Below are positions 50,960 through 53,097 of a stretch of 64,000 nt of DNA, one piece after another (the stretch's first letter is position 1; each line of letters begins with the position of its first letter). The position numbers and the translations under genes were made by a program. Below the pieces are notes generated by a model. That model was not told the origin of the DNA and made no database searches. It was given only the letters and a program-made list of their open reading frames with translations. Source of the stretch: Emcibacter sp. SYSU 3D8 (GTDB taxonomy: Bacteria; Pseudomonadota; Alphaproteobacteria; SMXS01); the NCBI RefSeq assembly GCF_039655875.1, contig NZ_JBBYXK010000004.1:310001-374000 (forward strand). Direction: 5' to 3'.

Positions 50960-51556
50960 ATGAGCCGGATTTTCGGGCCTGTGATCCAGCAGGGCTATGT
51001 TGTTCCCAACATGCGCGAAGCCACCAGGCACTGGATCGACATCGGCGTCGGACCATTCTATGTGGACGAGCATCTGAAGCTGCCCGGCCTGTATTACGGC
51101 AAGCAATACGAGTTCGAACTGTCCCCCGCCTTCACCTATTCGGGCGACCAGCAGATCGAGCTGATCCAGCCTCATGGCGACGCGCCGAGCATCTACAAGG
51201 ACTACCTGAAACGGGTGCCGGACGGCGGCCTTCAGCACATCGCCGTATGGGCCGACGAACCGGACGACGTGGTGAGCAAGCTGCAGGCCGGGGGTCGCCG
51301 CTTCGAGGTGACCCAGTCCTACATCGATATCACGCGGACCGACCGCAACCGGCATGTCTACCTGGATTCGATCGACCATCCGGGCACCATGGTCCAGCTG
51401 ATGATGCACGATCCGCTCTACATCGAGCTGTTCGGCATGATCAAGTACGCGGCCGATACCTGGGATGGCACTGATCCAATCCGGCCCATCGGTATCCTGC
51501 TCGAAAAGCTGCTGGCGGGGACCGGCGCCGACTGGAAGCACGGCGACAGTGACTGA
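50960..51556 (+). CDS. VOC-family protein, third relative of the 36-37 kb pair
   Basis: The 198-aa VOC protein shares the pattern QGYVVPNMREATRHWIDIGVGPFYVDEHLK and PSIYKDYLKRVPDGGLQHIAVWADE with the tandem VOC proteins, so it belongs to the same subfamily. Its C terminus is longer by about 25 residues. ATG 50960 follows GGGAGAAG. It lies downstream of a TetR gene that may control it. Confidence 0.85.
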   Translation: MSRIFGPVIQQGYVVPNMREATRHWIDIGVGPFYVDEHLKLPGLYYGKQYEFELSPAFTYSGDQQIELIQPHGDAPSIYKDYLKRVPDGGLQHIAVWADEPDDVVSKLQAGGRRFEVTQSYIDITRTDRNRHVYLDSIDHPGTMVQLMMHDPLYIELFGMIKYAADTWDGTDPIRPIGILLEKLLAGTGADWKHGDSD

Positions 51557-51691: not shown

Positions 51692-51722
51692 TTGACCATG
51701 ACGTTTCGAAACCGCATATAGT
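51692..51722 (+). promoter_or_regulatory. Candidate promoter of the threonine attenuator
   Basis: TTGACC (51692-51697) lies upstream of TATAGT (51717-51722, 19-bp spacer) or CATATA (51715-51720, 17-bp spacer). Transcription would begin near 51729, just before the leader peptide, leaving a short RNA ahead of the attenuator. Confidence 0.5.
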
Positions 51723-51754
51723 TTGGCATGAACGCGATGTACCGCATGCCGAAC

Positions 51755-51805
51755 ATGACGACGACCACCGCCTCCGGCGGTTGGTCTTGTGGTCGCGTGC
51801 GGTAA
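51755..51805 (+). CDS. Threonine-rich leader peptide of the thrS-like gene
   Basis: The 16-codon frame reads MTTTTASGGWSCGRVR and stop, with four threonine codons in a row (ACG ACG ACC ACC). In-frame ATGs at 51728, 51737 and 51746 could extend it to 25 residues. No clear ribosome-binding site is seen for any of them, so the exact start is open. It precedes mutually exclusive hairpins and a terminator, the classic arrangement of amino-acid attenuators such as thrL, but here in front of a threonyl-tRNA synthetase paralogue. Stalling at threonine codons when charged tRNA-Thr is low should allow read-through. Confidence 0.75.
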   Translation: MTTTTASGGWSCGRVR

Positions 51806-51862
51806 AATTACACCGCATTCATCAGCAAAGGCCCCGCCGGCGACGACGGGGCCTTTTCTTTT
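51764..51862 (+). promoter_or_regulatory. Transcription attenuator controlling the thrS-like gene
   Basis: Segment 1 ACCACCGCC (51764-51772), which contains the last threonine codons, can pair with segment 2 GGCGGTTGGT (51776-51785). Segment 2 can instead pair as CCGGCGG (51774-51780) with CCGCCGG (51834-51840, segment 3). That pairing disrupts the terminator stem formed by 51830-51836 and 51847-51853. Ribosome stalling on segment 1 therefore favours 2:3 and read-through. An extra small hairpin, TGCGGT/ACCGCA (51798-51803 and 51812-51817), lies between. Confidence 0.72.
51827..51862 (+). terminator. Intrinsic terminator inside the attenuator
   Basis: AAAGGCCCCG, a 10-base loop and CGGGGCCTTTT followed by CTTTT make a strong intrinsic terminator. 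It begins 22 bp after the leader stop and ends 47 bp before the ATG of the thrS-like gene. It is not needed to end the upstream VOC gene, whose stop is 270 bp away. Confidence 0.88.
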
Positions 51863-51909
51863 GTGCGACAGACGCCCCGCCGTGCCCTTCATCTCAAGGA
51901 GTACAGCAA

Positions 51910-53097
51910 ATGGACGATCTCGATCACCGCAGCCTGGGTAGCAGGCTGGAGCTTTTTCACCAGCAGGACGACGCGCCCGGCATGGTGTTCTGGCACCCGC
52001 ACGGCTATGCCGTTTACCGGGTGCTGGAGGACTACATCAGGCGCCGAATGCGACGCCTCGGCTATGCCGAGGTGCGCACACCGCTGGTGCTGCCGCGCGT
52101 TCTATGGGAGCGCAGTGGCCATTGGGAAAAGTTCCGCGACAACATGTTCCTCGTCGCCGACGAGGGCGGCCGCGAAATGGCGCTGAAGCCCATGTCATGC
52201 CCATGCCACGTCCAGATATTCAACAAGGGCCTGCGGTCATGGCGCGAGTTGCCGATCCGCTACGCCGAGTTCGGCCAGTGCCACCGCAACGAGCCGTCTG
52301 GCTCGATGCACGGCCTGATGCGCACCCGGGGCTTCGAGCAGGACGATGCCCATGTGTTCTGCCGCGAGGAGCAGGCCGTCGAGGAGATGGGCCGGTTCAT
52401 CGACCTGCTGGACGATGTTTATACCGAGTTGGGTTTTGCAGGGTACGAGGTGGCGCTGGCCACTCGTCCGGCCGAGCGCGCCGGGTCCGACGCGCAGTGG
52501 GACTGGGCCGAGGCGCGGCTCGACGAGGCGGCGCGGTCGCGCGGTCTGTCGTTCTCGGTCAAAGCCGGCGAGGGCGCGTTCTACGGCCCCAAGCTTGAGT
52601 TCATCCTGCGTGACCGGCTGGGGCGGACATGGCAGTGCGGCACCGTACAACTAGATTGTGTGTTGCCCGAGCGGCTCGACGCGTCCTATGTCGCACCCGA
52701 CGGCTCCCGCGCCGTGCCGGTGATGATCCATCACGCGGTGTTCGGCTCCATGGGCCGGTTCGTTGGCGTGCTGCTGGAGCATTATGGCGCGGCCCTGCCG
52801 TTCTGGCTCGCACCGGAACAGGTCGCAGTAGCGCCGGTGTCGGACCGGCACGGCGACTATGCACGGCAAGTATGGGAAGCGCTGGACCGTGCGAATGTGC
52901 GCGCGGTCATGCGGGACGGCAATGAAACCTTGCCGCGCCGTATCGTAGCCGCCCATGAAGCCGGTATTCCGGCGATGGCCATCGTCGGCGACCTGGAGGC
53001 TGCGGCGGGCACCGTCGCCCTGCGCCGGCGGGACGGCTCGCAGTCAGTAATGCAGCTGTCCGACGCCGTTGCGCTGCTTGCAGCGCCCGCTACCTGA
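51910..53097 (+). CDS. Shortened threonyl-tRNA synthetase lacking TGS and editing domains
   Basis: The 395-aa protein aligns by eye with only the last 400 residues of bacterial ThrRS (usually about 640). The class II core is intact: motif 1 VRTPLVLPRVLWERSGHW; motif 2 YAEFGQCHRNEPSGSMHG with R126; zinc ligands C97, H148 and H274; motif 3 R283 in GSMGRFVGVLLEHYG. The anticodon domain (about 298-395) is present but diverged: RDGNETLPRRIVAAHE replaces the usual RNE-IG-KIRE block. ATG 51910 has AAGGAG eight bases upstream, so the N-terminal domains are truly absent, not misannotated. It should charge tRNA-Thr but cannot clear Ser-tRNA-Thr. Expression appears to be set by the attenuator. Confidence 0.9.
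   Translation: MDDLDHRSLGSRLELFHQQDDAPGMVFWHPHGYAVYRVLEDYIRRRMRRLGYAEVRTPLVLPRVLWERSGHWEKFRDNMFLVADEGGREMALKPMSCPCHVQIFNKGLRSWRELPIRYAEFGQCHRNEPSGSMHGLMRTRGFEQDDAHVFCREEQAVEEMGRFIDLLDDVYTELGFAGYEVALATRPAERAGSDAQWDWAEARLDEAARSRGLSFSVKAGEGAFYGPKLEFILRDRLGRTWQCGTVQLDCVLPERLDASYVAPDGSRAVPVMIHHAVFGSMGRFVGVLLEHYGAALPFWLAPEQVAVAPVSDRHGDYARQVWEALDRANVRAVMRDGNETLPRRIVAAHEAGIPAMAIVGDLEAAAGTVALRRRDGSQSVMQLSDAVALLAAPAT

Follow-up and report, generated by a model that had tools for sequence, protein, structure and literature searches.

A conserved threonine leader with the anatomy of a transcription attenuator in front of a second, editing-less threonyl-tRNA synthetase gene of alphaproteobacteria

How would a bacterium control a second threonyl-tRNA synthetase (ThrRS) that has no proofreading domain? 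The question is raised by a thrS-like gene at 51910–53097 (+ strand) of the window, i.e., the whole stretch of 64,000 nucleotides of Emcibacter sp. SYSU 3D8 analysed here. The product of 395 amino acids comprises the ThrRS class II catalytic core and the anticodon-binding domain. It matches the TIGR00418 equivalog with 458.8 bits (cut-off 383.65), and the match begins at profile position 172 of 565, the TGS and editing domains being absent. A separate full-length thrS, 51% identical to the short ThrRS, is present in the same genome, and no Thr leader was found before it. An earlier note on this DNA had described a complete threonine attenuator in front of the synthetase paralogue. The anatomy of the region, folding with a masked ribosome and conservation in orthologues support this description, and we consider it highly probable that this is a ribosome-mediated transcription attenuator, through which expression of the second ThrRS, devoid of editing, responds to the availability of Thr-tRNA(Thr).

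The short ThrRS is probably an active enzyme, as judged from its residues. Its catalytic motifs and the zinc ligands Cys334, His385 and His511 are intact. Among the short enzymes, these ligands, the substrate-binding residues Tyr462, Gln381, Asp383 and Gln484 as well as Arg363 are kept in all rows covering them, one sequence-damaged row aside. The nearest solved structures are those of the E. coli ThrRS core in truncated form, a construct employed in inhibitor studies (PMC9880928). In a phylogenetic tree, the short enzymes form a single clade separate from 29 full-length ThrRS (100/100).

The leader ORF, 25 codons and a TAA at 51803–51805, occupies 51728–51805 (+ strand) and encodes MNAMYRMPNMTTTTASGGWSCGRVR. 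The four consecutive Thr codons noticed earlier in an ORF 5′ of the thrS-like ATG 51910 are indeed present (ACG ACG ACC ACC, 51758–51769, + strand) and are the putative regulatory codons. The start of the ORF had been placed at ATG 51755 and has to be moved 27 nucleotides upstream to 51728, on account of the orthologue alignment and of the fixed distance between a TTGA box and the first ATG. The two strands of the window hold 466 distinct ATG-started ORFs of 12–40 amino acids, and no other of them has four threonines in a row. A putative promoter at 51692–51722 (+ strand) consists of the −35 box TTGACC (51692–51697) and the −10-like box TATAGT (51717–51722); it was not flagged by a generic promoter scan of the window. 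Its position would put the transcript start at, or a few nucleotides from, the leader ATG 51728. The TTGA −35 box is found 35–39 nucleotides 5′ of the leader ATG in 20 of 22 orthologue leaders, and a Shine-Dalgarno match before this ATG was found in none of the 22. With this fixed distance and the absent Shine-Dalgarno match, the leader ORF is probably leaderless, for which trpL of Sinorhizobium meliloti provides an experimentally supported precedent (PMC10117765, PMC7298713).

The ORF is followed and partly overlapped by three pairings on the + strand. The 1:2 hairpin (51754–51799; z = −2.7 in the window) is formed by the Thr-codon region and GGCGGUUGGUC and hides the antiterminator strand. 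The 2:3 antiterminator (51774–51840), obtained from the nascent fold and from masked folding, has an outer helix of 51774–51780 with 51834–51840 and an inner helix of 51783–51793 with about 51820–51833, which encloses a hairpin spanning the leader stop codon. The 3:4 intrinsic terminator (51828–51861) combines a GC-rich hairpin and a U tract, AAGGCCCCGCCGGCGACGACGGGGCCUUUUCUUU, of −20.4 kcal/mol (z = −3.6). Its sequence occurs once in the genome. A simple terminator scan of the window missed it; nevertheless, this predicted terminator is supported by folding and by being conserved in 28 of 28 leaders. The synthetase gene has its Shine-Dalgarno site, AAGGAG (51896–51901, + strand), 3′ of the terminator and outside it.

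Folding energies are far from those of random sequence. The leader RNA reaches −64.5 kcal/mol as compared with −45.7 kcal/mol in dinucleotide shuffles (z = −5.1), and none of 200 shuffles was as low. In the full-length leader RNA without a ribosome, both the 1:2 pairing of the Thr-codon region with strand 2 and the 3:4 terminator form. When a ribosome is masked onto the Thr codons, leaving the RNA free from 51770–51776, and the nascent RNA is folded as far as the terminator's 5′ arm, 51774–51793 pairs with 51820–51840 at −30 to −35.5 kcal/mol. The nascent antiterminator fold of the window has −34.1 against a shuffle mean of −20.7. With the ribosome masked near the stop codon, the antiterminator cannot form in silico and the terminator does. 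Folding and in silico ribosome masking thus bear out the mutually exclusive 1:2, 2:3 and 3:4 pairings and the terminator before the thrS-like ATG that had been read from the letters.

Protein searches revealed the gene in three congeneric genomes (87–89% identity), and short ThrRS at 56–70% identity in Bradyrhizobium, Mesorhizobium, Azospirillaceae, Rhodospirillales, Kiloniellales and other alphaproteobacterial families. A Thr-rich leader precedes 29 of the 29 short ThrRS whose upstream region was read, from alphaproteobacteria and Burkholderia relatives. These leaders have 21–30 codons, 3–9 of them for threonine, and are followed by a terminator; for instance, the leaders begin with MFAHRPTTTTTTTSTTGDGG in Azospirillaceae, with MRNICSMSSTTATTSLGG in Bradyrhizobium and with MNARFVTTTTTTTTTANGG, containing nine consecutive Thr codons, in Burkholderia arboris. 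Within the class, the short thrS was found in 13 of 385 sampled genomes and the leader adjoins the gene in all 13, which are also training members of R1, a covariance model built from 22 leaders. R1 matched six unseen leaders (L142–L146, L148), each before a short ThrRS and three of them outside the class. A search of plasmids gave mostly matches of 48–53% identity to thrS of the housekeeping type, together with a short thrS copy on a Burkholderia megareplicon, which is preceded by a Thr-rich leader, and further matches in two Caballeronia records.

Two records call for comment. The short thrS of Bradyrhizobium sp. RD5-C2 (L014, 4001–5166) is open for 134 codons only and its similarity runs to residue 390; the interruption may be either a frameshift or a sequencing error. 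In a contig labelled Candidatus Kuenenia stuttgartiensis (L004/L084), the leader sequence is identical to that of a contig from the window's own genus, and the label is probably wrong.

The leader might in principle be no more than the normal terminator of whatever gene or region lies upstream, standing beside a fortuitous Thr run, since a glyoxalase-like gene ends upstream at 51556 with no other obvious terminator after it and hairpins arise easily in GC-rich sequence. We find this hardly credible: the Thr run, its spacing, the antiterminator strand and the terminator are conserved before the same gene despite unrelated upstream genes, and R1, trained on 22 leaders, predicts further short-thrS genes. 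Orthologues with different neighbours refute both chance and the assignment to an upstream gene. The genes next to short thrS are unrelated between lineages, so that the leader and short thrS look like a self-contained unit; no conserved operon partner was found in four loci compared.

The earlier note had named the orthologue comparison as one result on which an attenuator would stand or fall, and a Thr-rich leader ORF with competing stems was found in every short-ThrRS orthologue examined. The Thr-rich short ORF is kept in 28 compared leaders, and the competing pairings occur in 28 of 28 folded leaders, which are not independent and represent about a dozen lineages. The inner arm of the antiterminator varies in sequence and register by lineage, the pairing being rebuilt each time. 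RNAalifold on a MAFFT alignment gave 13 pairs with little covariation because this inner arm shifts register between lineages, and the conservation of structure was judged instead by folding each sequence against its shuffles. By this measure, the 1:2 region folds below shuffles in all 28 leaders (mean z −1.85), as does the terminator (28/28, mean z −3.7), and the nascent antiterminator does so in 21 of 22 (mean z −2.6), the exception being L012, in which it is no better than shuffles. The outer 2:3 helix has a 5-bp core, GGYGG against CCRCC, that pairs in every one of the 28 leaders. In L008, the core is GGUGG/CCACC as compared to GGCGG/CCGCC elsewhere, an exchange of U-A for C-G at the middle pair. 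The terminator gains no better pairing from the changed strand 3 base, so that the exchange is evidence for the antiterminator as such. The terminator arm is so strongly conserved in sequence that few positions show true covariation. The window element unites what identifies an attenuator: a leader ORF with a codon run, pairings that exclude each other in silico, an intrinsic terminator and conservation in orthologues. In one leader (L099, 1281–1355), only three Thr codons stand among those for Val, Ala and Ile (LTVATIKVTAVGG), and the structure is retained.

In the attenuator proposed here, RNA polymerase would start at or beside ATG 51728 and a ribosome translating the leader ORF would trail it. 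With ample Thr-tRNA, this ribosome would pass the four Thr codons toward the stop codon and mask strand 2, so that strand 3, the 5′ arm of the terminator, could pair with strand 4 and transcription would end at ~51861. When Thr-tRNA is short, the ribosome would stall on the Thr codons, covering strand 1 and freeing strand 2 (51774–51793); the latter would capture strand 3, no terminator would form, and read-through would allow the spare ThrRS to be made. The short ThrRS is thus very probably switched on by a shortage of charged Thr-tRNA. Since the signal would be the charging of Thr-tRNA, threonine starvation, inhibition of the housekeeping ThrRS and loss of its activity would all count; low zinc in Anabaena is an example of the housekeeping enzyme losing activity (PMC4787780). 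This suggests a hypothesis for why some alphaproteobacteria and Burkholderia carry a second ThrRS without proofreading: it would be an emergency enzyme, made only if charging fails. The question then arises whether a starvation-induced editing-less ThrRS leads to Ser-for-Thr mistranslation or obtains editing from a housekeeping subunit as in Anabaena.

The same stalling could serve another physiology, in which the natural signal comes from an antibiotic that inhibits ThrRS, or from translation stress in general, and the short ThrRS is an inducible tolerance enzyme. The ThrRS paralogue ObaO confers immunity to obafluorin (PMC11252418), a block of the housekeeping ThrRS would leave ribosomes stalled at exactly the leader Thr codons, and related scaffolds without Thr runs precede antibiotic-type acetyltransferase genes. 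ObaO carries Ser at Gly463 and Met at Leu489, and the Gly463Ser change was demonstrated to give resistance (PMC11252418). Gly463 and Leu489 (E. coli numbering) are, however, retained in 25 of the 25 short enzymes covering these positions, and neither conservation nor a biosynthetic cluster was seen in the gene neighbourhoods examined. With the resistance positions unchanged, an ObaO-type immunity paralogue is rejected, and the absence of the ObaO-type resistance residue makes a drug-tolerance role of the short ThrRS less likely; we rate the antibiotic or stress signal as distinctly improbable.

Control by ThrRS binding to its own leader, of the E. coli thrS type, or by a T-box reading the tRNA directly would be natural candidates as both are known controls of ThrRS genes, the autoregulation of E. 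coli thrS being noted in PMC2965389. What is conserved here is a short ORF holding a run of Thr codons, together with a terminator, rather than a tRNA-like operator across the start codon, and the Shine-Dalgarno site of the synthetase lies outside the fold, which leaves these controls very little probability. In an Rfam search of the window, T-box and every other family remained below their own cut-offs. RF00506 (Thr_leader) gave 19 bits (E = 0.57) as compared with a gathering cut-off of 55 bits, and a subthreshold match to ctRNA_p42d spans the terminator only, so that a known Rfam element or a T-box is rejected. As a ribosome-mediated attenuator, the element would provide a natural sensor of how far Thr-tRNA is charged, tightly conserved and absent from Rfam.

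Second ThrRS genes occur elsewhere under other controls. In Bacillus subtilis, thrZ is a second ThrRS gene that is induced on falling tRNA(Thr) charging and is T-box-controlled, and Bacillus thrS is likewise under T-box control. The thrS of the window resembles thrZ in being a second ThrRS gene, whereas thrZ is governed by a T-box and not by a translated leader. The T2 ThrRS of Anabaena is likewise a duplicate; it has impaired editing, is induced by stress and can pair with the housekeeping subunit, but the induction is by low zinc and not by attenuation (PMC4787780).

Translated leaders of the same general design are also on record. The enterobacterial thrL-thrABC leader (RF00506) likewise has a Thr run in its leader ORF, hairpins that exclude each other and a terminator before the gene; the present element differs in its target gene and its sequence, is probably leaderless, and in most of its leaders has no Ile codons. 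Leader-peptide control of a thrS gene has a precedent in thrL-thrS of Streptomyces lividans TK24, where a leaderless short ORF with Thr codons stands before the ThrRS gene (PMC8079986). That thrL, however, has two Thr codons and no clear terminator, and its target is an actinobacterial thrS, not a truncated paralogue (PMC8079986). The rnTrpL/peTrpL system of trpE(G) in S. meliloti, also an alphaproteobacterium, shares the leaderless leader ORF and classical attenuation (PMC7298713, PMC10117765). It differs in having Trp codons, and it works in trans as well, through a small RNA and a peptide of its own (PMC7298713, PMC10117765). Attenuators are known to differ between paralogues and to move among them, as in the case of hisS (PMC2965389). 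The mechanism is classical. The earlier note knew of none described for a shortened alphaproteobacterial ThrRS, and we too found no description in the literature, mainly in titles and abstracts; the target appears undescribed and an earlier prediction is possible. A comparative survey of attenuation of aminoacyl-tRNA operons was reportedly made by Lopatovskaya et al. in 2010 (cited in PMC4833913).

R1 also matched the scaffold before asd, the gene of aspartate-semialdehyde dehydrogenase, at 11 loci in many alphaproteobacteria (L125, L126, L127, L130, L131, L134, L136, L139, L140, L158 and L164), two of them assigned by Pfam and the rest from the start sequence of the product. Lys is present in the Thr core of 11 of 11 asd leaders (e.g., KTTTPKTT) as compared to 4 of 28 thrS leaders (Fisher p = 8e-7, a value overstated because the sequences are related). 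As asd feeds both threonine and lysine synthesis, the leader codons follow the gene. The asd leaders are apparently leaderless too, with TTTACA-like −35 boxes in the five that were read. The asd leader of the window's own genome, MSMTKLSTTTKTTASAGRSRVRAV, is located at C2:223182–223294 (L170). The pair of thrS and asd leaders, both in one genome, offers a natural experiment on how an attenuator changes its specificity and moves between genes. The hairpin of this asd leader, GGCCCCGGAGGCGGGGCC, has no U tract. The design of the asd leaders is that of SEP5 of S. meliloti, a translated short ORF in a 5′ UTR with six Thr and three Lys codons (PMC10117765). SEP5 is distinguished from the leader of the window by combining Thr with Lys and by preceding a biosynthetic gene, described as aspartate dehydrogenase, and no synthetase (PMC10117765).

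One might go further and suppose a single mobile scaffold, with shared strand 2 and terminator, that has been passed on across alpha- and betaproteobacteria among asd, the separate clade of editing-less ThrRS and further genes, the codon run being retuned for each gene (Thr, or Thr plus Lys). Before the second thrS, it would sense failing ThrRS activity and switch in a stop-gap synthetase that borrows housekeeping editing. The terminated leader RNA or peptide may have effects in trans in addition, like rnTrpL. We put forward this extended scenario tentatively and consider it rather unlikely as a whole.

The scaffold was met in other settings as well. R1 recovers canonical thrA leaders elsewhere in the phylum. 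In other families of the phylum, leaders with a Thr run (L147, L149, L156 and L159; e.g., beginning with MNLIQQHLTRTTTTTAPGG) precede a hydrolase of the isochorismatase family, and a 2-hydroxyacid-dehydrogenase-like gene is next in L147 and L149. The same type of terminator without a Thr run is located before GNAT acetyltransferases and near an aminoglycoside 3-N-acetyltransferase gene in L132, L133, L138 and L157; these leaders could be attenuators with another signal or mere terminator look-alikes. Leaders rich in Thr and Ser (MNRMFAVSTSTTTASAVGADA) precede a gene with a nucleotidyltransferase domain in L160 and L161. Finally, a conserved short ORF, starting with M and containing a NMTRFGWAVGGVVR-like stretch, is combined with the same terminator and no amino-acid run in several related genomes (L128, L135, L150–L155), and in L135, L152, L154 and L155 it precedes a DUF1127-like gene.
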